A DNA stretch of 64,000 nucleotides from an uncultured Lachnospiraceae bacterium. Its GTDB lineage: Bacteria > Bacillota > Clostridia > Lachnospirales > Lachnospiraceae. Positions within the stretch are counted from its first letter, which is position 1; every line of letters begins with the position of its first letter. A program made the position numbers and the translations under genes. The stretch lies in the NCBI GenBank assembly GCA_902781655.1, contig CACZJZ010000004.1, positions 1 to 64,000 of the forward strand, given 5' to 3'. A model generated the notes under the pieces. That model had not been told where the DNA came from and did not search any database. It was given only the letters and a program-made list of their open reading frames with translations. This document shows positions 16,424-39,122 of this stretch, piece by piece.

Positions 16424-17995
16424 CTACTCAATCTCGTTCTTCTTATCTTCCTCGTGGTACTCCTGCTCTGTATTCACACTCCATACATTCGATCGGTCCG
16501 TCGTCCCGGCCAGAATGTCCCTGACCGCCTCAAAGCTCGTGCACATCGAATGATCGATATTATTGTAGCGATGCTGGCCGTTCCGCCCAACGCAGAACAG
16601 ATTCGGCATCGTGTCGAGGTACTCTCTCAGCTCATCCATGTGATCATAGGTGTCAAAATACGCGGGATATGCCTTCTTCACGCGCTCCACATGATAGTCG
16701 AGTACCTCGTCCGGAGAATCAATCAGCCTAAGCTTCACCATCTCCTCAATGCCCATGTGCGCAAACGAATCGTCGCTCATGCTCCACATAGCGTCGCCCT
16801 CGTTGCAGAAATATTCGAGGCCCATCCACACCGTATGCTCCAGATCCTTCACCATGTAAGGGGACCAGTTGTTATAAATCTGGAATCGTCCCATTTTCAC
16901 ACTGCGGTCATGGACATAGACCCAGTTATCCGGAACAATATTGCCGACCGTCTTCTTATCTGTTTTGTTTTCCAGATGAAGATGCGAAATCAGAACGCCG
17001 ACAGTCATATAATCGCGATACGGCAGCCCCGCCGCGATGCGCGCCGGCTCCTCCGGCACATCGTTCATGCCTGCCACGAGGTCCTTGATCGGCATGGAGG
17101 AAATGACAAAATCTCCGGTCTCCGTGAAGCGCCTTCCATCCTGTTCGTAGGTGACGGAGTCGATGACATTCTGGGCATTTCTGTGAATACCGACGACCCT
17201 CGCGTGCATCATAATCCTGCCACCGAGCTTCTCCACCTCGGCAGCGGTCACATCCCAGAGTTCACCGGGTCCCAGCTTCGGATAGGAAAATTCCTCAATG
17301 AGCGAGGTTTCGATCTTGCGATCCTTTCTGCCCTCCTTTTTCTCGATGGCGTTCTTGAGAACGGCCGAGATAGAAACACCTTTCACACGCTGTGCGCCCC
17401 ATGACGGGTCAATCTGACTCGGATGGCGTCCCCAGAGATTCTCCGTATAATGCTCAAAAAACATCGAATAAAGTTTCTTGCCAAAGCGGTTGATGTAGAA
17501 GTCCTCGAGAGAATCCTCCTTCCGTTTATGAATGCAGGATGCCAGATAGCTGAAGCCCGTCTCCATGGTATTCAGAAAACCCATGTTCCGGAAAGTCTCT
17601 GCCTTCAGCGTGATCGGATAGTCGAAGAACTTCTGATTGAAGAAAATACGGGATACCCGCCCTCTGCGCAGCATGACACGGTCCGTTTTCTCCGGATCAG
17701 GACCGCCCGGCACCATGCTCGGCGTGCGTCCAAGCAGCAGATCGTCCTTTGCCGGTGCGCCCTGTGTCGGCAGCATCTCCTGCCACCACTGATTCACCTC
17801 CGGGACCTTGGAGAAGAAGCGATGCCCGCCCATGTCCATCCGGTTGCCATGATAATTCACCGTGCGGGAGATGCCGCCGAACGCGCCGCTCTCCTCGAAC
17901 ACGACTACTTCATATTCCCCGTTTCCCTTTTTCAGAAGTTCATAGGCTGCAGTCAGGCCGGCAGGACCTGCTCCGATAATCAACGCTTTTTTCAT
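16424..17995 (-). CDS. NAD(P)/FAD-dependent oxidoreductase, UDP-galactopyranose mutase-like
   Basis: This 523-residue flavoprotein opens with the dinucleotide-binding fold [17 protein letters not shown]. It has the second GG doublet in [22 protein letters not shown] and a C-terminal FAD segment near [19 protein letters not shown]. It resembles the amine oxidase / UDP-galactopyranose mutase group found beside glycosyltransferases. A role in sugar-ring isomerisation or oxidation is inferred from context, not shown. The ATG at 17995 has AAGGAG upstream. The 44 codons before it lack homology. It is the last gene of the long surface-polymer array. Confidence 0.8.
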
Positions 17996-18162: not shown

Positions 18163-19314
18163 TTATTTTAAAAGGAAATAGACACCCACATACACCACAG
18201 TCGGAATACAGCACACTGCCGATTTCAGCAGAATACGCCATTTTCTGTCCGCAGCCGCGATAAAAAGTCCGCACAGACCGGTCAGCATTGCCGCCAAAAC
18301 AATCGCCATGGACGAGCACAGACCGGACGCCAGATTGACGCAGAGAAGCATGCACCAGTAATAGTGCCGCGACCGAATATCCATACCCCTTTCTCCCCGA
18401 TATATTCGCAAAAACAGCAGAAAGACAGCCGGCACGATAAAATTCACGAATACAGATTTGCCCTGCCACGAGCGCATCATCAGGAACGTCTCCGGCGTGT
18501 ATATCGACGTGTTCCCCCAGATCTGCAGGATCGCACACAGGATCATGAACATCGGCAGCAGCTCCCGCCGGAACCGGCGGAACTCGCCGCCCTCGAACAG
18601 GCTGCTTGCCATCTGAAACAGCAGCAGATCGCTCAGCCCGATCATCAGCATCGGCAGAAAAGAGTGGGCGACCGCCGTGGGATGCATCGTAGATATCCGC
18701 GCCAGATACGCGACCCACATCGGGAACATGGCCATCGCATGACGAAGATCCAGCGAGGTGCTCCCGCCGGTATACGGCAGATAATGATACATGGTGTCGG
18801 TCTCCCAGCTGATGACCGATTGCACCACATAATAGGCATCATCCCCGTCAAAGAAAAGATGTGTATACGCCATGAAAAATTCGTAGAGCAGCAGGCAGAG
18901 AAATCCTCCCCACAGCACCGCCGGTATCGCCGGAGAACTTTTCGTCTCCTCCCGGAGCGTCTTCAGATCCACCACGTCCGTATCCGCTTCCAGACCGCCG
19001 GACGGTCCTCCCAGGAAGGCTGTCCAGTTCACTCCGCTGACACCGCCTGTGAGTACATACCCCGCCATCGCCATCGCGGCGGCGAGAATCGTATACAGCA
19101 GCACCAGCAGCGGAAAATTTCCGGTTTTCGTAAGCAGCAGCACCGGAAGGCCGACAAGCTCAAAAACGGCATAGGAGACGAAATATCCGGACAGCAATAT
19201 CATGCCCGGTGTGCGCCGCTTCTGCGGCAGCAGGGAACATGGCAGCATGCCGATCAGAAACGGCACCAGGATGGTCCAGCACACCAGTGCAAAGGCCTTG
19301 ATCACATATCCCAT
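18163..19314 (-). CDS. DUF6077-type polytopic membrane protein
   Basis: This 383-residue protein has about ten hydrophobic segments and a loop with AYTHLFFDGDDAYYVVQ and the acidic pair typical of GT-C-like membrane glycosyltransferases. It matches, to my recognition, the clostridial DUF6077 group found in cell-surface glycan clusters. The ATG at 19314 is used; the frame upstream runs through unrelated sequence antisense-like to the DUF6044 gene end. It likely transfers or exports sugar units at the membrane. Function is inferred from topology and neighbours. Confidence 0.65.
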   Translation of the reverse strand: MGYVIKAFALVCWTILVPFLIGMLPCSLLPQKRRTPGMILLSGYFVSYAVFELVGLPVLLLTKTGNFPLLVLLYTILAAAMAMAGYVLTGGVSGVNWTAFLGGPSGGLEADTDVVDLKTLREETKSSPAIPAVLWGGFLCLLLYEFFMAYTHLFFDGDDAYYVVQSVISWETDTMYHYLPYTGGSTSLDLRHAMAMFPMWVAYLARISTMHPTAVAHSFLPMLMIGLSDLLLFQMASSLFEGGEFRRFRRELLPMFMILCAILQIWGNTSIYTPETFLMMRSWQGKSVFVNFIVPAVFLLFLRIYRGERGMDIRSRHYYWCMLLCVNLASGLCSSMAIVLAAMLTGLCGLFIAAADRKWRILLKSAVCCIPTVVYVGVYFLLK

Positions 19315-19363
19315 AAACACCCTTTCCGGCACCCGCGGGAGAATTCCAAATGTCGGTGTGCCT

Positions 19364-21382
19364 TTACTCCAGTTCATAGACATAGACGGTATACGGCGAT
19401 GTCTCATCCGACCACTCGCCCCGCAGGCGCAGGTGCTTCTCCTCTGCATTGGTGAGCCGGATGCGGGAGAAGATGTAGCGGCAGCCCATGTCCCGGAGCG
19501 CCGTTTCATCAATGGCGATCTGACTGCTGATTGTCTGATAATGCCGCACTGCCTGAACAATGCCATCCTCGTCGCCCGAGTAGAGATAGCACCGTGCACC
19601 CCACGCGTCGAAATTCACCTCGCTCGCCGGTCTCCTTTCCAGAGCCGGCGCGATAGCCGTCCGGAACACATCCTTGTAGCTCTGATTATAGAAACCGAGA
19701 TATCCATCGAGCGTCGCAATCCCATTGTACTCCAAAACAGCCGGATGAAATCCATACGCCACAGCCCAGTCCGTGCCCGTGGTCCCGGAGGCCTGAAAGC
19801 CCTGCTCCGCCACCGCGCGGGCTGACGCTGTCCAGGCGGACGGATCGTCCGCCGTGCCATCCAGCGGATTGTCTGTATGCATATCCCGCTCCAGACTTCC
19901 GAACCGTTCCTCCGCCTCCTGCTGTGGTGTGCCCGCTGTCGAATCGAGATCCCCGGAAGAATACCCCAGATCCTTTCTGATTTTAGCAAACAGCTCCGGA
20001 GAATAAAATTCCCGCCAGGACAGATCGTCGACCGTCTGCCCCTGCATCTCCTCCTTCACGACCCCGCGCAGTGTGGCATAAAGGTCATTGTACGTGTTCG
20101 GCGTCGACAGCACCAGGGCGGCACTGAGCATTGGCAGCAGCATTGCTCCCGCCGCCGCGGCGCGGCTCTTCCTCCGTCCCGCGGCGCTCATCAGACGCAG
20201 GGCGATGAGGGTCATGGCCGCATACCACAGAAACGGGCTGAAGAAAATGGTCCTGTTAAACTGCCACCCCTTGAGCGGCGGCACCAGCCTTTCGACCATG
20301 CCGCGGAACGGCCGGAAATCGTACAGCCCATAAATCACGGCATTGAAGCCGAGCAGCAGGGCGATCAGATTATAGAGATCGTGGAAGATGCGTTTCCCAT
20401 GCCCGCGCACCACATACCGCCCATTCAGGAAGACAAAATACACGGCGCACACCGGCAGAATCAGCTTCTTCTGAACGCCGTCCGCATGAAAAATGTTGCT
20501 TACAAAGACATCCCCGATCTCTCCCAGAACCTGCGCCGGCGTGAAATCATTCTGCACCATGGTCTCCCGGATCGTGACCGCCCCGCCGCCGAGCATCGTC
20601 CGGAACAGGCGATATTCAAAGAACACACAGCCGAGCGCCATAGCCGCGGTCCCGGCAAGGAGCCTCAGCGGAAGCCTCCGGTCCCGGATCCATATCCAGA
20701 GAATGCCCAGAACCGAATAGGCGAGCAGAAAAAGGCCAAAATACGAGAAGTACGAGACAAACGGATAGACGAACAGCCCCGCCAGATACGGGAACTCTCT
20801 CCGCACACGGCTGCTTATCCATTCTTTCCAGTGCCCGTCATGCACCACGGCTCCAGCCCCGGGCCTTCTCCCCACCCGGTACAGACGGATCATCAGCCAG
20901 ACATACAGCGGGATCGAGGCAAAGCAGACGCCATAGGCCGGAAAGACATTCAGAATGCCGTACGCGAAGCCGCCGAGCAGCGCGATGGCCTGCGCGCTGT
21001 CAGAGAACGGCATCTCCTGCACAGTCTTCTCCAGGATTTCCCTCGTCAGCAGCCAGAAGCCCGCGATGGAAAGTCCGATTTTCACAAAATACAGTGTGAC
21101 ATACGCGGCAAACGGCGGGAGCAGCCAGTAGGCAAGCCCGGTCAGGGACCTCTCCGATGGCAGGACGTCCCGCGAAATGCCCCCAAGGAACAGGGAAGCC
21201 GTTCCCTGAGAGAAAAACGAACCCTGCTCCCGCAGCATCTGATACTGCGCCACAAAGAGATCCAGATTGTCATGGACCGCGATGTGAGCATTCTCCCCGC
21301 AGAGAATATAAAGAAAGGCTGCTCCTGCGAGGAACAGCCCGATCAGCATTTCGCAGATCCGTCTCAACCCTTTTCCGTCCAT
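19364..21382 (-). CDS. DUF6044-type polytopic membrane protein
   Basis: This 672-residue protein has an N-terminal hydrophobic segment, then AHIAVHDNLDLFVAQY, the marker of DUF6044. About a dozen membrane segments follow, and then a C-terminal soluble domain of roughly 220 residues ending in a compact beta-rich region. The topology recalls YfhO/GT-C glycosyltransferases, with the early acidic loop near the membrane face. Its start overlaps the end of the GT2 gene by 19 bp, so the pair is coupled and may use the GT2 product as lipid-linked sugar donor (inference). Confidence 0.72.
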   Translation of the reverse strand: MDGKGLRRICEMLIGLFLAGAAFLYILCGENAHIAVHDNLDLFVAQYQMLREQGSFFSQGTASLFLGGISRDVLPSERSLTGLAYWLLPPFAAYVTLYFVKIGLSIAGFWLLTREILEKTVQEMPFSDSAQAIALLGGFAYGILNVFPAYGVCFASIPLYVWLMIRLYRVGRRPGAGAVVHDGHWKEWISSRVRREFPYLAGLFVYPFVSYFSYFGLFLLAYSVLGILWIWIRDRRLPLRLLAGTAAMALGCVFFEYRLFRTMLGGGAVTIRETMVQNDFTPAQVLGEIGDVFVSNIFHADGVQKKLILPVCAVYFVFLNGRYVVRGHGKRIFHDLYNLIALLLGFNAVIYGLYDFRPFRGMVERLVPPLKGWQFNRTIFFSPFLWYAAMTLIALRLMSAAGRRKSRAAAAGAMLLPMLSAALVLSTPNTYNDLYATLRGVVKEEMQGQTVDDLSWREFYSPELFAKIRKDLGYSSGDLDSTAGTPQQEAEERFGSLERDMHTDNPLDGTADDPSAWTASARAVAEQGFQASGTTGTDWAVAYGFHPAVLEYNGIATLDGYLGFYNQSYKDVFRTAIAPALERRPASEVNFDAWGARCYLYSGDEDGIVQAVRHYQTISSQIAIDETALRDMGCRYIFSRIRLTNAEEKHLRLRGEWSDETSPYTVYVYELE

Positions 21383-22353
21383 GATGCCTTCCCCTCCGCG
21401 CCGGCCGATTCTTCTTCCCGGAGCAGCTCCCGATATCCGTGATGCAGCATGTTACGCTGCACCTCGAACTGCCTCCGCGTATTCCTCTCCAGATTGGAGA
21501 GAATCAGCCCGGCAAACAGAGACATGAACGCCGCCAGCATGACAAAGCAGCACACGAACAGCGTCGGGAATTTTGCCACAAGACCTGTCACGAGATAATC
21601 CCGGAAGACCGGGATGAAAAAGATCACCGAAAGCGCCGCAAGAATCAGGGAGAACCATCCGTAGAACTGCAGCGGGCGGTAATTGCGGTACAGGTTGAAG
21701 ATCGTTCCCAGCACGCGGAATCCGTCACGGAACGTATTGAGCTTTGACGCGCTTCCCGCCGGCCTGTCCCGGTATGTGATGACGACATTGTCAATCTGCA
21801 TGGCGTTGTAAACCGCGTGAATGGTCATCTCCGTCTCGATCTCAAAGCCATGGGACAGCACCGGAAACGTCTTGACAAAATCATAGCTGAACGCGCGGTA
21901 TCCTGTCATGATGTCCCGGATATTGCAGTCGAACAGATGATTGATAGCGCTTCGGACAAGAGAATTTCCCATGTTGTGAAACGGCCGCTTGTTTTCTGTA
22001 AAATACGTCGAGGAGAGTCGGTCCCCCACCACCATGTCGGCGTTGTGATGCAGCACCTTGTCCGCCATTTCCGGCGCCGCCTCCATCGGATAGGTGTCGT
22101 CGCCATCAACCATGATATAGCACTGGGCATCGATTTCCCGGAACATCCGCCGGATGACATTGCCCTTTCCCTGCATATACTCATGGCGGACGACCGCACC
22201 GGCTTCCGACGCGAGACGGGCGGTGTCGTCCGTGGAGTTGTTGTCATACACATAAACCACAGCATCCGGCAGCGCCGCCCGCGCATCCGCGACCACCTTT
22301 GTGATCGTCATCGCCTCGTTGTAACAGGGAATCAACACTGCTATTTTATCCAT
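21364..22353 (-). CDS. GT2 glycosyltransferase, polyprenyl-phosphate sugar synthase-like
   Basis: This 329-residue protein has the GT-A fold: IAVLIPCYNEAMTI, DNNSTDDT, the metal-binding VDGDDTYP, and a mid-domain GYRAFSYDF. Two hydrophobic segments near residues 230-290 anchor it. This layout matches GtrB/DPM1-like enzymes that make polyprenyl-phosphate-linked sugars for membrane GT-C enzymes. Three ATGs stand in tandem at 22359, 22356 and 22353; the last has the best spacing from the GGGGG run. Confidence 0.88.
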   Translation of the reverse strand: MDKIAVLIPCYNEAMTITKVVADARAALPDAVVYVYDNNSTDDTARLASEAGAVVRHEYMQGKGNVIRRMFREIDAQCYIMVDGDDTYPMEAAPEMADKVLHHNADMVVGDRLSSTYFTENKRPFHNMGNSLVRSAINHLFDCNIRDIMTGYRAFSYDFVKTFPVLSHGFEIETEMTIHAVYNAMQIDNVVITYRDRPAGSASKLNTFRDGFRVLGTIFNLYRNYRPLQFYGWFSLILAALSVIFFIPVFRDYLVTGLVAKFPTLFVCCFVMLAAFMSLFAGLILSNLERNTRRQFEVQRNMLHHGYRELLREEESAGAEGKASWTEKG

Positions 22354-22429
22354 CATCATCCCCCGTGCCGCGTACTCCCCGGCACCCCTTTCCATTCCGT
22401 CACAGGCTTTCCTCCGCCCTCCGCCGCGG

Positions 22430-23953
22430 TCAGAATCCCTGGTAAATAAATGCCGCGGAGCTGTATCCCGGCCCATACTCTCCGAAAATAATCACGAAGA
22501 ACAGGAGACAGAGCCAGAACAGCCATCGCACCGGCAGCTTCCTTTCCGCGATGCGGTCGCGCACACACATCACGTTTCCCTGCCGATCCGGCAGCACGGA
22601 CAGCAGGTCCACCAGAAACAGAACAAGCACCGAAATCGCGAGAATCGCCATATCCTCCCAATCCAGCCCGAGTGAGAGCAGGGAACCGTTCACCAGTATC
22701 TGCGGATTCCACCGGCTCACGCCGAGGCGGAGCATCGCACAGGCGTCCCCTGCGCTGGCCGCGTTGAAGAACACATTGCCGACATTCACCAGGATAAACG
22801 TCCGGACAATCCGGAAGAAATCCGCGCCCTTTCCCTCCATACGGATGTGGAGCGCCGGCAGCACCTTTTTCCAGAACGGGAGCGTCAGCTCGCCGGCCAC
22901 GATATAAAACCAGTGCAGCAGGCCGGACCCTATGACATATTTGATATCTCCGCCATGCCACAGGCCGACCGCCGTCCACAGGACGAACATCGCGAGAATG
23001 GTCGTGATCTCCTTGCCCGCCTTCTTTCCCAATTTCTTCCGGAGCGTCCGGGACAACTGCATCATTCCCTTTGTCCGGAGCAGCGGATAGAAAACATAGT
23101 TCCGCATCCACACGCCGAGCGTGATGTGCCAGCGCCGCCAGTACTCGGAAATCGTCCTTGAGAAAAAGGGCTGCGCAAAATTTTCCGGCAGGCGGATGCC
23201 CAGCGCCTCCGCGGCGCCGATCACGATATCCATACAGCCGGAAAAATCCGTGTACAGCTGAATCGTGAACATCACGGCACCGAACCAGATGTAGGCTCCC
23301 GGATACCGGCCATACCCCTGAAAAATGGTGTTTGCCAGCACAGCCGCCCGCTCGGAGATCACCAGCTTCTTGAAAAAGCCCCAGACCATCCTCTGCAGGC
23401 CGCGCGTCACCGTCCGGTAGTCCAGCCGGTGCGGTTTGAACAGCTCCGCGCCCGTCTCGCGGTACGTCTGAATCGGCCCCGAGACCATCGTCGGAAAAAA
23501 CATCCCGAACAGCAGCAGTTTTGCCGGATTCCTCTGCCGCTCCGCGATGCCATTGTAGACATCCATCGCGTAGCCGGCCAGCGTGAAGGTGTAATAGGAG
23601 AGGCCGAGCGGCACAGCCAGCGCCCGGATCGTGCCATCCGCCTGATGCATGCCGAATTTCAGATACTTGAGCAGCGCAAGCACACCGATGAGGAACAGAA
23701 CGTCGGCGAGCACCGCCGCGGTCCGAAGGCCCTGCTTCCCGGCTCTTTCCGCCCGTTCCATCGCCGCCGTCGAGATGAAGGTCGCCGCTGCGGCCGCAGC
23801 CGGATACAGAATCAGCCAGCCGCTGCCGGCGAACCAGTAATAGACAAGGCTGCCCGCAAACAGCAGGATCCACTGCCCCCTCTTCGACACCAGATAATAC
23901 AGCGCGAGGAGCGCCGCAAAAAAGCAAAGAAAATAGAACGAAGTGATTTCCAT
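22430..23953 (-). CDS. MBOAT-family O-acyltransferase (first copy)
   Basis: This 507-residue polytopic protein resembles AlgI/DltB. Marks are SYYTFTLAGYAMDVY, FPTMVSGPIQTY, LYTDFSGCMDIVIGAAEALG, SEYWRRWHITLGVWMRNYVF and the catalytic His in GLWHGGDIKYV. Such enzymes move an acyl group from a cytoplasmic donor across the membrane onto a glycan or teichoic acid. It starts 7 nt after the acyl carrier protein stop and shows no strong Shine-Dalgarno, so it is probably coupled to that gene. The neighbouring carrier protein is its likely donor partner. Confidence 0.92.
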   Translation of the reverse strand: MEITSFYFLCFFAALLALYYLVSKRGQWILLFAGSLVYYWFAGSGWLILYPAAAAAATFISTAAMERAERAGKQGLRTAAVLADVLFLIGVLALLKYLKFGMHQADGTIRALAVPLGLSYYTFTLAGYAMDVYNGIAERQRNPAKLLLFGMFFPTMVSGPIQTYRETGAELFKPHRLDYRTVTRGLQRMVWGFFKKLVISERAAVLANTIFQGYGRYPGAYIWFGAVMFTIQLYTDFSGCMDIVIGAAEALGIRLPENFAQPFFSRTISEYWRRWHITLGVWMRNYVFYPLLRTKGMMQLSRTLRKKLGKKAGKEITTILAMFVLWTAVGLWHGGDIKYVIGSGLLHWFYIVAGELTLPFWKKVLPALHIRMEGKGADFFRIVRTFILVNVGNVFFNAASAGDACAMLRLGVSRWNPQILVNGSLLSLGLDWEDMAILAISVLVLFLVDLLSVLPDRQGNVMCVRDRIAERKLPVRWLFWLCLLFFVIIFGEYGPGYSSAAFIYQGF

Positions 23954-23960
23954 GAGCCGT

Positions 23961-24212
23961 TCAGCTGCGCGCCGCCAGCTTCTCCGCGATGATATTGGCC
24001 ATCTCTCCGACGTTCTTCATCGTCACAATCTGACCCATCGCGAAGTGAATGCCGAATTCCTGTTCCACGGCAGCGATCAGGTTGATATGCTCGAGGGAAT
24101 CCCAGCCGTCGATATCGGCGGACGTCGTCCTGTCGTTGACTGTGATCGACTCGTCGTCGAAGACATCGCGGAACACCTCGTTCAGTCTGTCATAAATCTC
24201 ATCTCTCGTCAT
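23961..24212 (-). CDS. Acyl carrier protein
   Basis: This 83-residue acidic four-helix protein has the phosphopantetheine site Ser in GWDSLEHINLI. It is not in a fatty-acid operon: its neighbours are two MBOAT enzymes, an AlgJ-like protein and an FkbH-like protein. That makes it a dedicated carrier for a modifying acyl group, as DltC is for D-alanine. AAGGGA precedes the ATG. Confidence 0.93.
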   Translation of the reverse strand: MTRDEIYDRLNEVFRDVFDDESITVNDRTTSADIDGWDSLEHINLIAAVEQEFGIHFAMGQIVTMKNVGEMANIIAEKLAARS

Positions 24213-24296
24213 GATTATTCCCTTTCTCTTTCTCTGTATTTTCTCTATATTTTCTGTGTTCAGTTGATCTATATCCCTGCCGCGCTGTCATCATCT

Positions 24297-25457
24297 TCAG
24301 TTCTGCACGACCGGCATGATGTCCGTCAGCGTGAACCGGGCCAGATTCATCAGATAGCGCTCATTTACCTCATAGACTACCACATCCGGGTCCAGTGACT
24401 CCAGCATATCCGGCGTATAAACATAATAATACTCCATCGTCACCTTGCGGAAGTCCGACGCCACATAATCTGTCATGATCGGCGCGAACGAATCCCCGAT
24501 GAGGAGTATGCTCCGCGGATCTGCCCCCGCGTGGCTGTTCGTGTACCGATACTCCGTGGTATCCTCACTCACCTCCCGCGTGAGGCCTTCTGTGTCAGCA
24601 TACCCGGCAGGCTCCTGTTCTCCGTCCGGCCCATCCTTTATCAAAATCTGTCCGAGGTGCATCAGCCTTGCAAGATCGTAGATCTGCTGCGGCGCCGCCT
24701 CCCTGGAAACGGTGTCTAACGCCGGAAGGTCGCAATGTCCCAGCGCACTATCCAGCTCCTGTGCCGCCAGATATGCGCCGAGTCGGTTCCAGTGCGTGTC
24801 ATACTTCCGATAGAGCTGTTCCTCCGGGTGCTCCTCCCGGTAGGCCATGATCGTCTCCGCCGGATTTACAACAGGAATGCCGCGGTCCCGAAGAAAGGTC
24901 GTCACCTGATAAAGTCTGCCATCCCCGGGCTTGCCATAGGATGACGGCATCTCGTCCGCGTAAATCCGCATTTTGCCCGGAACCGCCATCACCACAAACT
25001 GTCTATCCATCGCCTCGCAGAGGTTCTGTGCAGATTTCATCTGCATCCAGATCTGCGCGAGTTCTCTGTCAGAAAAGAGGTTTGTCCCCTTGTAATCCGC
25101 CACCGGATCCTCCTCGTTGGCCTGATTCCCCCGGTAGAAGAGCCAGCCGTCCCGGCCTACCAGCACGCTCGTTGTGTTGGTGGAGTGGAGGACATAATAG
25201 TCCGTGAGTCCTCCCAACGTCAGGAGCTGGTTCCGGAATGGTAGATTTGCATTGTAATACTTCGTGGCATCCACCGGAAAGCTTCGGAGCGTCTGACGGT
25301 GCAGCTCCGGTCGCTGCACCAGCGCCGTGTTCTCATAGTCTGCCGCATCCGGCAGCGCGGCACGGAGAGGGTCTTTCAGTACTGCCCACAGCAACGGCGG
25401 TACGACAAGCAGAAGCACAAACAGAGCGATATATAATTTTGCCGTTTTATTCCGCAT
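24297..25457 (-). CDS. AlgJ/AlgX-like (DHHW-type) SGNH protein
   Basis: This 386-residue protein has one N-terminal membrane anchor (residues 8-25) and an extracytoplasmic SGNH-like domain. The nucleophile region is LLIGDSFAPIM and the acid/base pair is in YDTHWNRLGAY, the D-x-H-W motif that names the family. VLVGRDGWLFYRG is also typical. These proteins accompany MBOAT enzymes and complete or assist O-acyl transfer outside the membrane. The start overlaps the MBOAT stop by one base (TGATG). Confidence 0.88.
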   Translation of the reverse strand: MRNKTAKLYIALFVLLLVVPPLLWAVLKDPLRAALPDAADYENTALVQRPELHRQTLRSFPVDATKYYNANLPFRNQLLTLGGLTDYYVLHSTNTTSVLVGRDGWLFYRGNQANEEDPVADYKGTNLFSDRELAQIWMQMKSAQNLCEAMDRQFVVMAVPGKMRIYADEMPSSYGKPGDGRLYQVTTFLRDRGIPVVNPAETIMAYREEHPEEQLYRKYDTHWNRLGAYLAAQELDSALGHCDLPALDTVSREAAPQQIYDLARLMHLGQILIKDGPDGEQEPAGYADTEGLTREVSEDTTEYRYTNSHAGADPRSILLIGDSFAPIMTDYVASDFRKVTMEYYYVYTPDMLESLDPDVVVYEVNERYLMNLARFTLTDIMPVVQN

Positions 25458-26998
25458 CAGAACCTCGCATAAATAAACGCATGGTAGGTATTCCCCGCAA
25501 GCAGCAGTACGCTGACAGCAAACACCAGAGCGAGATACACGGCCTCCGCCGGGCTGCCGATCCATTTTCCGCGCAGCGCCGACAGCCTGCTCTGCTTCTG
25601 GCATGCACTGTCCTGCAGTACCCCGCAGCCAGACACGCCCAGAACGATGGCTGCGAGCGACTGGAGCGAAAAATAAGACGCAATCAGCGGCTGCGCATCT
25701 CTGTGGAGGAATGGCAGGAACATACATGACAGCGTCCGCGCTCCCTCTGAGATGCTGCCGGTGCGGAACAGCGCCATGCTGACGATCCACACGAGATCCG
25801 TATAGATCACGCCCAACACGCGGTGCCGGTCAAGGAATTTCCGAAAACCAAGCCGTTCCAGCGAAACGAACATACCATGCCACAGTCCCCACAGGACAAA
25901 CGCCCATCCGGCTCCGTGCCACAGGCCGGTCAGGGCGAAGACTACCATCAGATTGCAGATGGTCCTGCGCTTTCCCCTCCTGCTTCCGCCGAGCGGAATG
26001 TACAGATAATCCCGGAAGAAGGCACCCAGCGTGATATGCCAGCGCCGCCAGAATTCCGTGACCGACCCGGACAGGTAGGGATACCGGAAATTCTCCGGAA
26101 TCGTGAAGCCGAGCATCCGCCCGAGGCCGATGGCCATGTCCGAATAACCGGAAAAGTCATAATAAAGCTGCAGCGCATACAGCGCGGATCCGAGCCATGC
26201 CGACAGCCCGTTCAGCTGCGTCGGCACAGCGAAGATCCGATCCACACTCATGGCAATCAGATCAGATAGAATTGCCTTCTTGCCAAGCCCGTAGAGGAAG
26301 CGCCGAAATCCCTCCGCAAATCCATTCCTCGTCACCGCACGTGCCGTCAGCTGCGCCTCTGCATGCGAATAGGGTTCGATCGGGCCGCTTAAAATGCGCG
26401 GAAAGAACGCCAGGTACAGCGCAAGCTTCGCGGGATCCTTCTGCGCCCTGACCCTGCCGCGGTAAAGGTCGATGACATACGTCAGCGCCTGAAAGGTAAA
26501 GAAAGAAATCCCGAGCGGCTGCAAAATGCCGGTTCCGCCCTGTGCAATCCGGTCCGCCAGCCGTCCCGCTCCTACGCCGGCAAATCCTCCCGGAAGGATC
26601 CGGTCTGCTGCACCGAGCACAAAATCCGCGTACTTGAACACACCGAGCACGCCGAGATTACACAAAACCGCGAGTGCCAGCACAGCACGCGCTGCGCCCG
26701 GGTGTGCCGCGCTGCCTTCGCGCCATTTCCCGGATTCTCCATCGGACCGTCCGCCTCTGCCCGAGGGTCTGGCGCTGCCCGCGCCCGTTCCCGCCCTCTC
26801 CAGCGCAAGGCCGAACAGGTAATTGACCGCGATCATCACCAGCAGGAGCACCAGATGATCCGGGTCCCCCCACGCATAAAACAGCAGACTGATCAGGAGC
26901 AGCAGCACATTCTGAGGCCGCGTGCGGCGGACAAGCGCTGTCAGCAGACAGATTCCGGGCAGCGCTGCCCACAGAAAGAGCATTGAAGAAAATTCCAT
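25457..26998 (-). CDS. MBOAT-family O-acyltransferase (second copy)
   Basis: This 513-residue AlgI-type protein has FFTFQALTYVIDLYRG, FFPRILSGPIEPYSH, YYDFSGYSDMAIGLG, TEFWRRWHITLGAFFRDYLYIPLGG and the catalytic His in GLWHGAGWAFV. It is closer to the AlgI group than the first MBOAT, which has a different length and a GGD motif after the catalytic His. An insertion rich in Gly/Arg/Ser near residue 80 is unusual. It is tightly coupled to the AlgJ-like gene. Two MBOATs with one carrier suggest two acceptors or sequential transfer (inference). Confidence 0.93.
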   Translation of the reverse strand: MEFSSMLFLWAALPGICLLTALVRRTRPQNVLLLLISLLFYAWGDPDHLVLLLVMIAVNYLFGLALERAGTGAGSARPSGRGGRSDGESGKWREGSAAHPGAARAVLALAVLCNLGVLGVFKYADFVLGAADRILPGGFAGVGAGRLADRIAQGGTGILQPLGISFFTFQALTYVIDLYRGRVRAQKDPAKLALYLAFFPRILSGPIEPYSHAEAQLTARAVTRNGFAEGFRRFLYGLGKKAILSDLIAMSVDRIFAVPTQLNGLSAWLGSALYALQLYYDFSGYSDMAIGLGRMLGFTIPENFRYPYLSGSVTEFWRRWHITLGAFFRDYLYIPLGGSRRGKRRTICNLMVVFALTGLWHGAGWAFVLWGLWHGMFVSLERLGFRKFLDRHRVLGVIYTDLVWIVSMALFRTGSISEGARTLSCMFLPFLHRDAQPLIASYFSLQSLAAIVLGVSGCGVLQDSACQKQSRLSALRGKWIGSPAEAVYLALVFAVSVLLLAGNTYHAFIYARF

Positions 26999-27035
26999 AC
27001 CATACCCTGTGCCGCGTTCTTTGCGGCACCCTGCA

Positions 27036-28898
27036 TCAGCGGTTCACCCGGATATACCGGTTCTGGTTCGTGTACACCGCCGGAATCGTGAACTTCCACT
27101 GCGAGGCGCCCTTCCCGTCCTCTCCCAGCTTCGTAAATCCCATGCGGCCATAGAAGTCCTTTACCATCGCATTCTTGGCGGTCGGATAATAATAGCCGAA
27201 TATCTGGCGGATGTGACGGCGGCTGCACTCGGCAACCAGCGCATCCATCATCGCATACTCCATATCCCGCTTCAGCACGCGGCAGCTCATGAGCCACAGG
27301 TCGATGAGCAGCGCCCTGTCGCCCGTCTCTGCCGGCCTTCCGCCGTTCTTACGGAGCGTCTCCTCATCATCCGTGACCGTCATCGCCTCGCTACCCACAA
27401 TCAGCGACACGATACCGTTGTCCCCGAACCGGTCTTCCAGCCTTCCGTACAGCGTGACAGTCTCCGGATCCTCAGCCGCCCGGGCAATCTCCGGCTCCGT
27501 GAACCGCTTTGTCGTCAGATTGAACTGATTGCTTTTATTCGTAAGCTGCGTAATCCGCGCGTAATGCACCGGCTCAAAAGGTCTGATCTCCGCCCGCATC
27601 TCCAGCGATTTCAGATATTCCCCGTAGTCCGCAAAACTCGTCTGCGCCCTTTTGCGCTCCGCATTTGCCCGGTACATCTCGCTCTTCTTCGCATCCTCCG
27701 CCGAGAATGTCGTCACCTCGAAATACCCCGCGTGATCCAGCACACGGATGTAATTCTCCGGCCGCGGTCCGTCCACGGCGCCGTTCTCTGTGATCTCCGG
27801 TACCGCCGCGCCCGGCACCTGCTGCCGGATGATCTCTCTCTCCGCCGGATTGTCATCCACGAACACCATGCTGTCCGCACCGATGTTGAGATCGCCCGCA
27901 ATCGCGGCAAAATTGGCGCTCTTCGGCTCCCAGTTCGCGCGGATGTCCACGAAATCCTCCGGCCGGAGCACGCTCTCCGGATGCCGAAGTCCGGCAAGCG
28001 CATTCGTCTCCTCGTTCTTGGAATCCACGGTCAGCAGCACGCCGATCGATTTCTGTTCCTTCAGATACGACTGAAATTCCCGGTACGTCTCCCCCAGCGC
28101 GGTCTCCTCGCCAAGCTCAATGCCATCCACCCCGTCGTCTCCGATGACGCCGCCCCAGAGTGTGTTGTCGAGGTCGAGCACCAGCGCCTTCTTGTTTTTC
28201 CCATAGATCGACTTGATGATATTGGAGACGCTGAACGCCAGAAGCGGTATTGCCTTCATCGCGAGCGCGTACTTATAGAGACTCCAGAACGCGTCGTCAA
28301 GCCACGCATCCAGTCCGTAGGATGCCGCCAGATAATTGATATCATGGAGATAGAAGTTTTCGTGCGTGTCCGCATAAGCCGCAAACCGCTCGTTGAGCCG
28401 GCTCACGAAACGCACGCGTCCGCGGTAATCCGAAGCGTCGCGGTTTCCCTCAAGCCGCCATGCCGGATATTCAAAATTATTCTGAATGATCGGGCAGCGG
28501 AACCGTTCCGTGAGCTTCTCCCACATCCCGGCAAACCGGTCCGCCGTGCGGCCAAGCAGGGCCTCCACGTCCTCCCGGGACATGGACATCTCCGGCAGCT
28601 CCTTCAGGTTCCGGTACGTGGTGTGAATATAAATCACGTCCGGCGCAAAGCTGTCCAGCGTCTCATTGCCGAACATGGCGTCCTCATAATACTGCGCGTA
28701 CTCCGACTCATAAAACTCCGGCTCAATCCCCTGCCGCAGCAGAAATATCTCCATCATCCGGATGATGTCATGTGTCGTCGATCCGCCCAGCACCGCGATT
28801 TTCTTGTGTATGCGCGGCGTCCCGTCCGCAAGCAGTTCCCTCCTGATGCGCCTCGAGCGCTTCAGCATATCGTCAGGATCAAAAGGATAATTGTTCAT
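27036..28898 (-). CDS. FkbH-like HAD-IIIC protein
   Basis: This 620-residue protein has an N-terminal region of about 225 residues with an SGNH-like opening (IAVLGGSTTHDI). A HAD domain follows, with the nucleophile motif LVLDLDNTLWGGVIGDDG and VFVDDNPAER. The C-terminal GNAT-like region contains LTNKSNQFNLTTKR and FYGRMGF. FkbH proteins dephosphorylate 1,3-bisphosphoglycerate-derived groups while loading glyceryl on an acyl carrier protein. The ACP three genes on makes that role likely here. The ATG at 28898 has AGGAAAAAG upstream; an earlier in-frame ATG (28940) lacks one. Confidence 0.88.
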   Translation of the reverse strand: MNNYPFDPDDMLKRSRRIRRELLADGTPRIHKKIAVLGGSTTHDIIRMMEIFLLRQGIEPEFYESEYAQYYEDAMFGNETLDSFAPDVIYIHTTYRNLKELPEMSMSREDVEALLGRTADRFAGMWEKLTERFRCPIIQNNFEYPAWRLEGNRDASDYRGRVRFVSRLNERFAAYADTHENFYLHDINYLAASYGLDAWLDDAFWSLYKYALAMKAIPLLAFSVSNIIKSIYGKNKKALVLDLDNTLWGGVIGDDGVDGIELGEETALGETYREFQSYLKEQKSIGVLLTVDSKNEETNALAGLRHPESVLRPEDFVDIRANWEPKSANFAAIAGDLNIGADSMVFVDDNPAEREIIRQQVPGAAVPEITENGAVDGPRPENYIRVLDHAGYFEVTTFSAEDAKKSEMYRANAERKRAQTSFADYGEYLKSLEMRAEIRPFEPVHYARITQLTNKSNQFNLTTKRFTEPEIARAAEDPETVTLYGRLEDRFGDNGIVSLIVGSEAMTVTDDEETLRKNGGRPAETGDRALLIDLWLMSCRVLKRDMEYAMMDALVAECSRRHIRQIFGYYYPTAKNAMVKDFYGRMGFTKLGEDGKGASQWKFTIPAVYTNQNRYIRVNR

Positions 28899-33418: not shown

Positions 33419-36400
33419 TCAGTCCGCCTTGATCGAATCCGTGCGATAGATGAACTTCACTGCGTTGCCGCCGTTCTTGTCGTCGTCCGACTGCGCCGGA
33501 AGCGCTCCCGTGAAGGAGTTGTAGTCGTCGCCGGCCTCCGTCACCGCCTGCAGACGGTCAAGCACATCCTGAACATTGTCTCCGAAGAGCTCCGTCAGCT
33601 TCTGAATGCCCTCTTTGTTGTACTTGTTGAGACCATCCAACAGCTCCTGTGCGCCGTCGTCCAGACTTCCTGTGCCGTCCAGCAGCTGCACTGTGCCATC
33701 GTACAGATCCGATGCGCCGTCGTCCAGCTGCACCGCGCCGTCATACAGATCCGCCGTGCCGCTGTCGAGCTTATCCGCGCCGGTTTTCATCGAGATCCCC
33801 GGCGCCCTTTGCCAGAGTATCGAGGCCATCCTTCAACTGAGAAGCGCCGCTGTCCAGCTTGCCAGCGCCAACGGTGAGTGCCTGCGTGCCGTCCTTCAAC
33901 TGCGCCGTGCCGCTTTTCAGCGTTTCCGCTCCTTTGGAGAGCGGCTGCACACCTTCATTCTGCAATTTCGAGATGCCCGCATCCAGATCGCTGGCCCCCT
34001 TGCTCAGCTTCGAGACACTGCCTGCCAGAACAGGAAGCTGGTCGATTGCCTGAACAGATGCCTGAATCGTCAACTGATTCTCGGAAAGCTTCTGCCCGAT
34101 CTGACTTCCCGCTAAATTCAGTGTCTCGAATATGCTCTTCAGCCCGTCGCGTTCGTTTGCTTCCAGCGTTGTTAAAATCTGTGCCTCAGTGGAGATGGTC
34201 GCCACGTCGCTCTGCGCTGTGGCAGCCGCTTTCATGGCATTGCTGAGAGCCTTCGATGTATCATCATCACTTGACGGGATACCTTTTAGCTGATCCAGCG
34301 CAGTATCAAGCTGTTTCAGCGCAGCATCCAGTTGATCCTTCTGCGCCTCTAACGCCTTTCTCGTCTCGTTTGCCTGTACAGCGTCCGCATAGACCTTCTG
34401 CGCCCGGCTCAGCTCCTGAGCCGCCTTATCCCGCGCATCCTCTGCGGATTTGTTAGCTGCTTCCACAGAGGCGTCGATCTCCGGGGATTCCTCCGCGGTG
34501 ACAGTGACAGCCGTCACCGCAGGATTCGTCTGCGCGGGTTCTGCCTGCGCGGACTCCGCCACCGCGGTGCTCTCCGTAGTCTGGTCCGTCTGTGAGGTAC
34601 TCCCGGACGTTTCTATAGCTGCGCCTGCAGTCGTGCTGTCCTGCGTCGCCTGCCCGGAGGCTTCCTGTGCCGTTCCGCTCCCGGAAGACCCTTCGCTGTC
34701 CGCAGGAGCCGCGCTCTTCCCTGACGTGCTCTCCTCCTCTGCTGTGCTATCCGCATCCGTCACGGTATCCGGCAGAGCATTGGCAGCCGCCGGGGCCATT
34801 TTCTTTGCGGCGGAGGAAGTACTGCTGCCATCCACCAGCTTTGCCGCCTGATACGCCGCGTTGGCGTCGGCATAAGCCGCTGCTGCTTGCTGATACGCAT
34901 TTGTTGCATCAGCAAGGGCACTTTTCGCATCCGCCACGGCTTTGTCACTCGCACCGCGGCATGCTTCAAGTTTTGTCTTCACTTCCGCCTGTGAATCCTT
35001 CAGCGTTTTCTGCAAGGCATAGAGGCTTTGGGTATTTCCCTGTATTGCCTCTCTCTTTGCGGCATCTGTCAGATAATTATTCACTGTCTGCAGGCTGTTC
35101 GACGCCTCGACTGCCTGCGTTTTAATCGTCCCGGTCGTGCCCGAAATCTGTGCCATTCCGCTGCGAAGCGTCGATGCTGTCTCTGAAACAGCATCGCTGT
35201 CTCCGATGCTGCTCTTCACCGTATCCATCACGGACTTTACCTGATAGAGTCCGGCGATCAGCTTTGCAAGTCCGCTCTTCATCTCGCCGGCCTTTTCCGC
35301 GGTGAGACCGGAGGTCGCGGCGTTCAACTGGCCAAGGCCTCCTGACAGCTCCGAAGAACCTGCTTTCAGCGTATTCGTGCCGGTGCCAAGCTGCGAGATT
35401 CCGCCCTGGAGGGCTGCCGCGCCGTCGTCAAGACTCTTTGCGCCCGCCTGCAGCTTGCCGGAATTATCCACGAGGCTGGCCGTGCCATTCTTTAATTCCC
35501 CCGCACCGGACTGCAGCTTGCCTACGCCTGCATTCAGAGTCTCCGTGCCGGTCTTGAGCTTTGCTACGCCGTCCACCAGAGCAGCGGAACCATCCTTGAG
35601 CTCGCCCGTGCCGTCGGCCAGCTCTTTTGTCCCGTCCTTCAGCTTGCCGGCGCCATCCTTCAGATCGCCGGTGCCGTCCTTCAGCTTGCCGGCGCCGTCC
35701 TTCAGATCAGAGGCGCCGTCCTTGACCTTGCCGGTGCCGTCCTTCAGATCCTCCCCGCCGTCGATGAGCTTGTCCATCCCATCCTGCAGATCGTCCATCT
35801 GATCGGAGATCTCGCTGGTGTCGATGTCCTTCGTCAGATTGAAGCTGGACAGCACATTGCTGGATGCCATGGTCAGGGTCATATCGAGGGCAAAGTTTTT
35901 GACATCCGCCTCGATCTCCACGCTTTCCGGGATGTCGATGTCGTCGAGCTTCTTCCTGGCCTCCTCGTCCTTCGCCTTGCTCTTCATGTTGTCCCAGTCG
36001 AGGCTCTCGGTAAGGCCCGGGAACGCGACGCCGACGACAATATTGTTCTTGCCCTCGTTGATGATTCTGCCATTGGTGACGGTCACATTGCTGAACGTGT
36101 CATTCGGGAGTACCGCGCCGCTCGTCATGCAGAACGGCACCTTGATTTCCTCTTCCTTGTCTCCAACCTTCACCTTCTTAGTGGCATTGTTCGTGTATTC
36201 AAAACGGATTTTGACATGGCCGCTCTTGCCGGCGAGGTCCTCCGGTTTGATGTCCTTACCATCCAGCTGATAGGACAGCTTCACGGTCACAGGGAGTTCC
36301 TTATCCGTGGTACCCTGATAATAGACATCCGCGCCGCCGTCCGTATCCCAGGTGATGGTTCCGTCCGCATTCTCCTTGTAGCTGCCATCGCCGTTCACAT

Positions 36401-36743
36401 TGGTGATGTCCTTGAGCGTCGTGGTATCCTTCAGAGAATCCGCGCCGTCCTTATTTTTCAGCTGATTGCTGACGATCACCTTCGTCGGCGAACCCGCCGC
36501 GTCCGCGATCACATAGACGGTCTCATCCTTGCCGCTCTCGCTGCTGTGGGAGACGCCGTCCGCCTTCTCCTGCTCTGCGGTCTCCTGCTCCACCTGTTCG
36601 GCTGCCGTGGACGCTGCCTCTGCGCTCTCGTCCGAGGCCGTCTTGCCGCATCCGAAGAGTGACATGCTCATCGTGACAGCCAGCAGCACGCTCAGGACGC
36701 GTGCCTTCGTTTCCTTTCCGATGACAAGATTCCATTTTTTCAT
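33419..36743 (-). pseudogene. Giant heptad-repeat lipoprotein partner of MMPL exporter, frameshifted
   Basis: A lipoprotein signal ends in the lipobox SLFGC (Cys near residue 32). A beta-rich domain spans about residues 60-270. Long runs of the Leu-x-x-Gly heptad follow, in the style of LKDGAGKLKDGTGDLKDG, interrupted by a coiled-coil region with Ala/Ser/Thr-rich sequence (about residues 560-830). The first frame stops after about 990 residues at 33771, but the heptads continue in the next frame to 33419. Removing one A from the run of four at 33784-33787 restores one frame of 1107 codons with an unbroken repeat. It is either a real frameshift, a slippage site or a sequence error. It lies 154 bp downstream of the MMPL gene. 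Confidence 0.85.
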
Positions 36744-36897: not shown

Positions 36898-39027
36898 TCA
36901 GTTGTTCTGTTCTTTTCTTGCCGCGATGCGCTCCTGTGCCTTTGCCTTCACCATGGCATGCGTGGTGCCGCGGTCCGGCAGCGTAGTCTTCAGAATCAGC
37001 TTGTCGAAGATCATCAGGAAGCCCGGCAGCACGAAGATGACGCAGCCCATGCTGATCAGGGCGCCTCTCGCCATCATGATGCAGATGGAGCGGATGAGGT
37101 CGATGGTAGAGTAAATGCCGACGCCGAAGGTCGCGCCGAAGAACGACAGCGCGCTGACGAAGATTGACTTCGAACTCGTGCGGACCGCGATGCGGACCGC
37201 CTCCGATTTTGACTGACCGTTGTTGCGGCGCTCCCGCAGGTATCGCGTAGTCTCCAGGATCGCGTAATCGACGGTAGAGCCGAGCTGAATGGTTCCGATG
37301 ACGATGCTGGCGATGAACGGCACCTGAGAACCCATAAAGTACGGAACTCCCATGTTGATCAGGATGCCGCCCTCGATGACCGCCACCAGGATGAACGGAA
37401 TCGAGATCGAGCGGAACACCAGCAAAATAATGACAAAGATGATGCCGATCGAAACCGAGTTGACCATGATGATATCGCGGTTGGTCGTGGTGATCAGATC
37501 ATACGTGGCCGGCGCCTCGCCGACCAGCAGAGAGTTCGGATCGTAGCTCTTGGCCAGTGCCTTGATCGTGTCGCACTGCTGGTTGACCTCGTCCGAGGCC
37601 ACCTGGTACTGCGAACCGATCAGCAGAACCTGCCACTTGTCATTCATCAGATTGTCGCGGAGTTCATCCGGAATCATGTCGTCCGGAATGCCGGCGCCCT
37701 TCAGCGAATTGACGCCGAGAATATAGGAGACGCCGTCCACGTTTTTGATATCGTCCGCGAGCTTCTGGACATCCTTGGCCGGCAGATCCGCGCGAAGCAT
37801 TAGCATGTCGGTCGTGGACATGTCAAAGTCCTTCTCCAGCTTGTCGTTGGCGATGATGGACTCAAAGGTCTTCGGCAGCGTCCGGTCGAGGTTGTAATAA
37901 ATTGTGGCGTGCTGATTGCCGTAGGCACCCGGGATGACCAGCAGGAAGAAGATGATCAGGAACACCGGAAACCGCTTCAGCACCCAGTATCCGAGGCCAT
38001 TGAACTCCGGAATGAGCGGCTTGTGTTTTGTCTTCTGCAGAATCGGATCAAACACCAGCACCATCGATGGCAAAATCGTGATGCAGGCCAGCACACCGAA
38101 GAGCACGCCCTTCGCCATGACGAGGCCGAGGTCCATGCCCAGTGTGTAGCTCATGAAGCACAGGGCGATGAAACCGGCGATCGTGGTGACGGAGCTGCCG
38201 ATGACGGAGGAGAAGGTCGCCTGGATAGCCTTCGCCATAGCCTCATCTTTTTCATCTCCGTTCTCCAGCTGCTCCTCATAGCTGTGCCACAGGAAGATCG
38301 AGTAATCCAGCGTGACACCCAGCTGCAGGACCGCCGCCAGCGCCTTGGTCACGTAAGAGATGGAACCGAGGATATTGTTGGTTCCGAGGTTGTACAGGAT
38401 GGCGATCCCGATGCTGAGCAGGAAGACGAACGGCACCGCGAAGGAGTCCATCGAGAGCATCAGAATAATCGTCGCGAAGATCACAGCCAGAATGACGTAA
38501 ACCGGTGCCTCGCGGTCGGCCAGCTCCTGTGTGTCGATCAGAACCGGCGTAATGCCGGCGACGAAGCAGTCCTTGCCGCACAACGCACGGATCTCCCGGA
38601 CCGCCTGGGTTGTCTCGTCCGAAGCGGAGGTGTTTTCATAAACCACGAACACCATCGTGGCGTCGCCTTTGTTGAACTTGTCGTACAGCTCCTTCGGAAT
38701 GATTTCCTTCGGAACCGTGAGATCCAGAACCGAGTCATACCAGAGCACATTCTTGACATGATCGACATGCTCGATCTCTGACTTGAGATGGGATACCTGC
38801 CGGTCAGACATCCCCTCGACGATGATCTCCGAGAAGGCGCCAGACTGGAACTCATCCACCATGATATTCTGACCCTTCATGGTATCGATGTTCTGCGGCA
38901 GATAACTCAGCATATCGTAGTTGACCTTCATCCGCGAATAGCTGATCAGCGCCGGTATCAGCAAAACTACGGCCAGAATCAGGATAGGAATCCTGAGCTT
39001 GACGATCGCGTGCGAAACCTTCTTCAT
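36898..39027 (-). CDS. MMPL/RND-family exporter
   Basis: This 709-residue protein has the RND duplication: a membrane helix, an outside loop and a five-helix bundle, each twice. The LGVTLDYSIFLWHSYEEQ segment in the first half and IQLGSTVDYAILETTRYLRER in the second are the matching membrane motifs with acidic residues for proton flow. Gram-positive members export lipids or envelope molecules. The heptad-repeat lipoprotein downstream is the usual extracytoplasmic partner. GGGAGGC precedes the ATG at 39027; a start eleven codons upstream lacks a good site. Confidence 0.92.
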   Translation of the reverse strand: MKKVSHAIVKLRIPILILAVVLLIPALISYSRMKVNYDMLSYLPQNIDTMKGQNIMVDEFQSGAFSEIIVEGMSDRQVSHLKSEIEHVDHVKNVLWYDSVLDLTVPKEIIPKELYDKFNKGDATMVFVVYENTSASDETTQAVREIRALCGKDCFVAGITPVLIDTQELADREAPVYVILAVIFATIILMLSMDSFAVPFVFLLSIGIAILYNLGTNNILGSISYVTKALAAVLQLGVTLDYSIFLWHSYEEQLENGDEKDEAMAKAIQATFSSVIGSSVTTIAGFIALCFMSYTLGMDLGLVMAKGVLFGVLACITILPSMVLVFDPILQKTKHKPLIPEFNGLGYWVLKRFPVFLIIFFLLVIPGAYGNQHATIYYNLDRTLPKTFESIIANDKLEKDFDMSTTDMLMLRADLPAKDVQKLADDIKNVDGVSYILGVNSLKGAGIPDDMIPDELRDNLMNDKWQVLLIGSQYQVASDEVNQQCDTIKALAKSYDPNSLLVGEAPATYDLITTTNRDIIMVNSVSIGIIFVIILLVFRSISIPFILVAVIEGGILINMGVPYFMGSQVPFIASIVIGTIQLGSTVDYAILETTRYLRERRNNGQSKSEAVRIAVRTSSKSIFVSALSFFGATFGVGIYSTIDLIRSICIMMARGALISMGCVIFVLPGFLMIFDKLILKTTLPDRGTTHAMVKAKAQERIAARKEQNN

Positions 39028-39122
39028 ACTGCCTCCCATACCGCACCTCGTGCGCGGCACTCACCGATCTTGAAATGCCCTTATCCAGACTGCCCGGCAT
39101 TTCCATTCGGCGAAAAAATAAT

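Follow-up and report, generated by a model that had tools for sequence, protein, structure and literature searches.

An FkbH-fed, Dlt-like acyl relay proposed for a glycan locus of an uncultured Lachnospiraceae bacterium

The Dlt system (DltA-DltC-DltB-DltD), by which surfaces are esterified with D-alanine, is defined by an adenylating enzyme and brings together a small dedicated carrier, a membrane-bound O-acyltransferase (MBOAT) of the DltB type encoded beside it, and an SGNH-type protein. In tetronate and methoxymalonate pathways, FkbH, an acyl carrier protein (ACP) and 1,3-bisphosphoglycerate are held to yield glyceryl-ACP, according to the passages of PMC7489565 cited here. O-acetylation of the AlgI/AlgJ kind pairs an AlgI-type MBOAT with an SGNH partner of the AlgJ/AlgX type. 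The locus described here has features of each of these systems. It lies in a stretch of 64,000 nucleotides (the window) from an uncultured, gut-type Lachnospiraceae bacterium (assembly GCA_902781655.1, contig CACZJZ010000004.1, positions 1 to 64,000 of the forward strand), where five genes occupy the minus strand from 22430 to 28898 in the order fkbH, MBOAT1, AlgJ-like, ACP and MBOAT2. A previous sequence-only reading of this DNA had named these five genes as a glycan acylation module, and all of them are present with family matches:

27036 to 28898, minus strand: fkbH, with an ATG at 28898; FkbH_N, HAD-IIIC and GNAT-like C-terminal domains; TIGR01686 256.6 bits (cut-off 146.65), FkbH_N PF21211 36.8 bits; proposed glyceryl loader
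25457 to 26998, minus strand: MBOAT1, an AlgI-type MBOAT by sequence; PF03062 103.8 bits; 1-bp overlap with the AlgJ-like gene
24297 to 25457, minus strand: AlgJ/AlgX-like SGNH protein; ALGX PF16822 68.1 bits; AlgJ 4o8v in the PDB at E 2.7e-5; DTHW and GDSF motifs readable
23961 to 24212, minus strand: dedicated ACP of 83 aa; PF00550 24.4 bits; WDSL motif (WDSLEHINLI)
22430 to 23953, minus strand: MBOAT2, a DltB-type MBOAT by sequence; PF03062 49.1 bits; 7 bp beyond the ACP

The junctions are tight or overlapping, as had been claimed, between fkbH and MBOAT1 (37 bp), MBOAT1 and the AlgJ-like gene (1-bp overlap, TGATG) and the ACP and MBOAT2 (7 bp), but the 84-bp gap between the AlgJ-like gene and the ACP is not tight.

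Our preferred reading, to which we give a probability of roughly 55%, is that of an FkbH-fed, Dlt-like relay in which glyceryl from 1,3-bisphosphoglycerate would be loaded onto the ACP and exported by MBOAT2 to a glycan; the acyl group, its transfer and its acceptor are what we infer. Direct support comes from the gene identities, the retained catalytic residues, the ACP and MBOAT types, the recurrent linkage of the genes and the empty searches of the source genome for amino-acid adenylation and for the C-domain of ketoacyl-ACP synthase III (KAS III). A carrier-protein relay of this kind had been predicted from the sequence, and the FkbH residues, the type of the ACP and the DltB-type MBOAT2 support the prediction.

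The locus probably works like a Dlt system. It resembles one in its small dedicated carrier, in the DltB-type MBOAT encoded 7 bp away, in a nearby SGNH-type protein, though one whose gene overlaps MBOAT1, and in the predicted transfer to a surface polymer. It differs in that a search of the source genome for amino-acid adenylation (TIGR01733), the mark of a DltA-type enzyme, gave no match, that FkbH stands in this position and that MBOAT2 scores under the DltB equivalog cut-off. As the search for this defining enzyme came up empty, the locus is not classed as a Dlt member, and because FkbH takes the place of that enzyme, neither an amino acid nor an adenylation is expected. With the FkbH glyceryl-ACP synthases of tetronate and methoxymalonate pathways the locus shares an FkbH with a stand-alone ACP and identical catalytic residues. 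It differs from them in that a search of the source genome for the KAS III C-domain (ACP_syn_III_C, PF08541), the tetronate-operon partner, gave no match, and in that the scanned genes include no neighbour resembling a polyketide synthase (PKS); an MBOAT and glycan genes are found instead. As the genome is 99.5% complete, FabH may be absent or divergent in this organism.

The FkbH protein belongs to its family by its TIGR01686 score. BF1531 (3slr) is its sole sequence match in the PDB, at 183 bits over residues 22-398, and an AlphaFold2 (AF2) model built on 21 sequences (pLDDT 79.8) matches the same structure (TMt 0.86) and, lower down, many GNATs. In an alignment of 144 FkbHs, which took only frames of 480-700 aa, the HAD residues D241, D243, T245, S292, K325, D347 and D348, which we take to be catalytic, are 99-100% conserved, and Cys538 of the GNAT domain, presumably the acyl carrier, is a cysteine in 143 of 143 ungapped rows (residues are numbered from the codon at 28895; one is added for the ATG at 28898). 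The checked HAD residues and the cysteine are also identical in five FkbHs whose genes, on Streptomyces and Methylosinus plasmids, lie between one for KAS III and one for an ACP, an arrangement that we read as that of glycerate-using tetronate clusters. These five proteins share 161 invariant columns, and the window FkbH keeps 94 of them; the HAD part accounts for 42 (out of 48) and the N-terminal part for 15 (out of 51). The putative active-site residues, whose absence would have counted against the sequence-only reading, are present in both comparisons.

The ACP has GmACP3 of Geobacter metallireducens (2lml) as its best PDB match (75.7 bits; the next is at 24.5 bits), with 35 of 75 aligned residues identical, and this is the closest solved ACP by sequence. 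The other PP-binding open reading frame (ORF) of the genome carries a GADSLD stretch and reads as an ordinary fatty-acid ACP type. A role of the locus ACP as fatty-acid carrier was rejected on these two grounds, in line with the earlier prediction.

Searches of the source genome, of 2.76 Mb, found one FkbH, two PP-binding ORFs and six MBOATs, and FkbH, one ACP and two MBOATs are packed in 6.5 kb. Since one of the two PP-binding ORFs is fatty-acid-like, FkbH is the best candidate to charge the other. This and the chemistry of the family (PMC7489565) lead us to propose a route from FkbH through glyceryl-ACP and MBOAT2 to a glycan outside the cell. By analogy with its family, FkbH would take the three-carbon acid from 1,3-bisphosphoglycerate, remove the phosphate and place glyceryl, the likely acyl group, on the dedicated ACP. 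MBOAT2, judged by its type and gene pairing, would pick up the acyl group from its carrier on the inner side of the membrane and move it across. On the outside, the ester may be finished by an SGNH protein, here AlgJ and in many relatives a different one. The acceptor would be a glycan, either lipid-linked or at the cell surface, and may be built with the downstream GT2, DUF6044 and DUF6077 genes. MBOAT1 and AlgJ would form an extra accessory pair of the AlgI/AlgJ type, possibly for acetyl, in a small set of relatives.

The two MBOATs are of different types by sequence, MBOAT2 being DltB-type and MBOAT1 AlgI-type. MBOAT2 scores 490 bits with a Dlt-type profile vs 232 with a generic one, and MBOAT1 scores 416 bits with the generic vs 309 with the Dlt-type profile. 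A tree shows the same division; it covers 78 of the MBOATs collected, with groups of more than 22 rows sampled down, and its row L185 is the window MBOAT2 again. More specifically, MBOAT2 falls in a 42-row branch (100/100) with the MBOATs of ten Dlt-like operons, chosen from MBOAT2-profile matches with a nearby ACP and called Dlt-like by their layout, and MBOAT1 falls in a separate 14-row branch (99/99), where all six AlgJ-paired MBOATs are found. An AF2 model of MBOAT2 (13 sequences, pLDDT 76.2) has DltB (6bug, TMt 0.73) as its best PDB match. MBOAT1 and the AlgJ-like protein have the composition of an AlgI/AlgJ pair, an AlgI-type MBOAT with an SGNH AlgJ/AlgX partner, and their genes overlap; unlike the known O-acetylation pair, they lie inside an FkbH-ACP operon.

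A profile built from 13 MBOAT2s, that of the window included, was run over the family sample of 299 genomes and gave 12 matches of at least 520 bits, a threshold set post hoc; all 12 are in genomes with FkbH, and a comparison of coordinates by hand puts 10 of them on the same contig as FkbH and no more than 5 kb from it. The next match, at 502 bits, comes from G179, which has no FkbH. At L239 the ACP adjoins MBOAT2 although no fkbH lies alongside. The two genes are neighbours in G190, whose FkbH is on a different contig; the ORF that follows them there has SGNH-like motifs and no Pfam match.

FkbH scores over the cut-off in 63 genomes of this sample and at 71 places besides the window, giving 72 loci. 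Each was covered for up to about 9.5 kb per side, 10 of the 72 stretches being shorter than 12 kb and some FkbHs being fragments. Because the partner profiles were built from the nearest loci, divergent partners are undercounted. Of the 72 loci, 53 have an ACP no more than 600 bp from FkbH, and the number rises to 60 at 9.5 kb. For an MBOAT the counts are 31 at 3 kb and 32 at 9.5 kb, and each of these 32 loci also has an ACP at 9.5 kb or less. From the density of MBOATs (212 matches in 60 genomes) we estimate that chance alone would put one within 3 kb of about 1-3% of places. The MBOAT is Dlt-type in 20 of the 32 loci, a label that requires a margin of more than 30 bits for the Dlt profile over the generic profile.

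Among the nearest relatives, a biased sample made up of the best 80 of 173 FkbH loci, a reach of 9.5 kb takes in an ACP at 73 loci, an MBOAT at 65, an SGNH gene of a family (f2) different from the AlgJ-like one at 47, and AlgJ at 5. Only the window, L034, L035, L036 and L080 have the MBOAT1-AlgJ pair between FkbH and the ACP; the L033 stretch stops beyond MBOAT1, and at L105 no ACP was detected with the divergent MBOAT-AlgJ pair. The conserved core is therefore FkbH-ACP-MBOAT2, often with GT2 and DUF6044, and the MBOAT1-AlgJ pair is a rare addition. A single conserved five-gene unit was rejected because the pair is a rare insert in the neighbourhoods of relatives, which corrects the sequence-only reading of the five genes as one module.

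Outside the family, FkbH scores over the cut-off in 14 of 398 genomes of a phylum sample and has a match in 113 of 72,556 plasmid records. Three of seven annotated plasmid loci that were opened (non-Streptomyces, non-Bacillota) hold FkbH, an ACP and an MBOAT together, namely those of Rhodobacteraceae SC52, Sinorhizobium meliloti RCAM1750 and Tistrella mobilis. In the other four, a WcbI gene stands beside FkbH-ACP (Niveispirillum), KAS III-type genes are present (Methylosinus and Burkholderia), or MaoC and SDR genes are found (Rahnella). The S. meliloti 1021 and Subdoligranulum records had no usable annotation; by profile, pSymB of S. meliloti 1021 carries FkbH, ACP and MBOAT together, with fkbH read in two frames (L241:11653-13760). 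The FkbH match of other S. meliloti records, that of strain 2011 among them, is in one piece, unlike that of 1021.

Several observations weigh against the proposed relay. Neither MBOAT reaches the DltB equivalog TIGR04091 (cut-off 375), with MBOAT2 at 147.3 and MBOAT1 at 154.7. In the three Dlt-like operons that were scanned (L222, L226 and L230) the adenylating enzyme is over the TIGR01733 cut-off and under that of the DltA equivalog, and the MBOATs score 137.5-160.7, all under 375; thus, these operons are not proven D-alanine systems. The ACP-adjacent MBOATs of L116 and L118 lie outside the DltB-type branch. The AlgJ-like gene overlaps MBOAT1, not MBOAT2, and its product is no more than a candidate for the SGNH partner of MBOAT2. 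The ACP tree groups the window ACP with the ACPs of FkbH-MBOAT loci and so agrees, weakly, with a carrier distinct from those of fatty-acid synthesis; it is short and poorly resolved (20 rows obtained from about 30 PF00550 loci tried), and since six of the 20 rows lie beyond a branch of length 10 and L218 additionally has an end branch of 10, those seven rows are probably wrong frames. The AF2 models, with so few sequences behind them, are of moderate confidence. Because no ACP was detected within 9.5 kb in 12 of the 72 family loci and no MBOAT in 40, FkbH-ACP is not always an MBOAT feeder. Finally, the SC52 and S. meliloti MBOATs score best to the generic profile and the Tistrella MBOAT is non-discriminating; thus, linkage in these three is by association only, and the link between FkbH and MBOATs may have arisen more than once.

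The alternative that survives best keeps the relay and replaces plain glyceryl with lactyl, hydroxyacyl, methylated glyceryl or another ACP-built acid; we consider it unlikely, with an appreciable chance of being correct. Within 9.5 kb of FkbH, the 80 nearest loci have genes for VOC (46), MaoC (11), SDR (10) and transketolase (4) proteins, so that the acyl group may differ between loci. In all 46, the VOC/Glyoxalase_4 gene and fkbH are on opposite strands, and the former is often convergent with the ACP (an example of the VOC gene is L055:12093-12497, minus strand, in Kineothrix alysoides); its product may epimerise or reshape the ACP-bound acid. The SC52 locus adds a VOC gene of the same Pfam family on the fkbH strand (L243:11909-12334). 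Split transketolase genes lie between FkbH and the ACP-MBOAT2 part at L102:11779-13533 and L084:4090-5838, hinting at a further acyl type. Plasmid pTM1 of Tistrella mobilis (L253:2871-8806) encodes FkbH, a methyltransferase, an ACP, an MBOAT and an ORF with an SGNH-like motif, and the methyltransferase sits between the ACP and FkbH, making a methylated glyceryl group possible there. The group on the flagellar glycan of Campylobacter jejuni is made before export. This surface glycan carries a glyceric-acid derivative, the dimethylglyceric acid of flagellin, and the fkbH-domain gene cj1302 lies in the glycosylation locus, the two not being linked in the passages of PMC7099621 cited here. The cj1302 gene may represent a related use of FkbH. 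Since a VOC gene accompanies 46 of 80 near relatives and a search of the source genome for Glyoxalase_4 (PF13669) gave no match, the acyl group here may differ from theirs, which also counts against the relay as proposed. Against a different group in this organism, however, stand that same empty search, the lack of matches to VOC, MaoC, SDR and transketolase profiles near FkbH in the window, and the retention of the checked catalytic residues of FkbH.

In a second alternative, FkbH-ACP supplies a cytoplasmic step that N-acylates a sugar (amino or nonulosonic), and the MBOATs are ordinary acetyl-CoA-dependent O-acetyltransferases. Both GNAT and NeuB hits occur near FkbH in 7 of the 72 family loci (L117, L122, L138, L148, L156, L157 and L176), where the FkbH-ACP group beside a GNAT and a NeuB/PseI-like synthase suggests acylated nonulosonic acids, and 12 of the 32 MBOAT-bearing loci have only other or unresolved MBOAT types; both observations belong with those that speak against the relay. 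In the window, however, GNAT and NeuB profiles gave no match near FkbH, MBOAT2 is by sequence DltB-type and lies 7 bp from the ACP, and, of the 32 family loci that have an MBOAT up to 9.5 kb from FkbH, 31 have it no further than 3 kb away; we judge this explanation to be quite improbable.

It is more doubtful still that MBOAT1-AlgJ alone acts on the glycan and that FkbH-ACP-MBOAT2 is a decayed or unrelated passenger. The former does look like a complete AlgI/AlgJ pair, but the frames of the supposed passenger are open, the catalytic FkbH residues are kept, and it is this core that recurs across many relatives whereas the MBOAT1-AlgJ insert is rare. Last, although FkbH and an ACP adjoin KAS III in the Streptomyces and Methylosinus loci, a tetronate or other small molecule made from glyceryl-ACP is scarcely credible here, given that the genome has no ACP_syn_III_C or amino-acid adenylation match and that the scanned downstream neighbours are glycan-type, and a tetronate or PKS cluster was rejected on these empty searches. 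Of the 71 family loci besides the window, 6 have ORFs of more than 1,100 aa, which are a coarse indicator of PKS or nonribosomal peptide synthetase (NRPS) genes.

Four further genes lie downstream of MBOAT2 on the same strand, and a MATE transporter is encoded upstream of fkbH:

21364 to 22359, minus strand: GT2, polyprenyl-phosphate glycosyltransferase-like; PF00535; AglJ model 199.6 bits, under its cut-off of 325; near MBOAT2 in many relatives
19364 to 21382, minus strand: DUF6044 membrane protein, likely a member of the glycan locus; PF19510 476.5 bits; recurs in many relatives
18163 to 19317, minus strand: DUF6077 membrane protein; PF19554 364.7 bits; near FkbH in three relatives (L053, L065 and L075)
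16424 to 17995, minus strand: FAD-dependent amine-oxidase-like protein (NF005546); 787.2 bits, cut-off 418; recurs near some relatives

A promoter scan gave 19 sites vs 8.0 in shuffles and a scan for terminator-like sites 28 vs 14.3; no site from either scan singles out any operon start, and a tRNA scan gave no match. Elsewhere in the window, positions 33771 to 36743 and 36898 to 39060 (minus strand) hold a 990-aa protein with many DG-rich repeats beside an MMPL-family transporter.

The papers that mention FkbH together with an MBOAT concern aeruginosins and suomilides; the suomilide pathway uses FkbH to load glycerate on an NRPS, and acylation of a hexose falls to a separate putative MBOAT. 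No description of an FkbH/ACP/MBOAT glycan module was found in the Creative Commons-licensed full text of PubMed Central, a search outside which most subscription journals fall. We tentatively suggest, at somewhat less than even odds, that the locus represents a widespread class of surface-glycan decoration, in which a dedicated ACP carries an acyl group built from a glycolytic intermediate, no amino acid being adenylated, and an MBOAT then takes the group over for export. Such a class would have been assembled more than once, with a DltB-type MBOAT in many Clostridia and other MBOATs in some Clostridia and Alphaproteobacteria, and swappable tailoring enzymes (VOC, MaoC, SDR, transketolase and methyltransferase) would vary the group. 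If this is true, carrier-protein-driven esterification of surfaces would be widened from D-alanine to acids taken straight from glycolysis, and a function would be gained for many FkbH-ACP pairs outside polyketide clusters. It would also predict glyceryl-type esters on the surface glycans of Lachnospiraceae and rhizobia, and would couple a surface ester to glycolytic flux.

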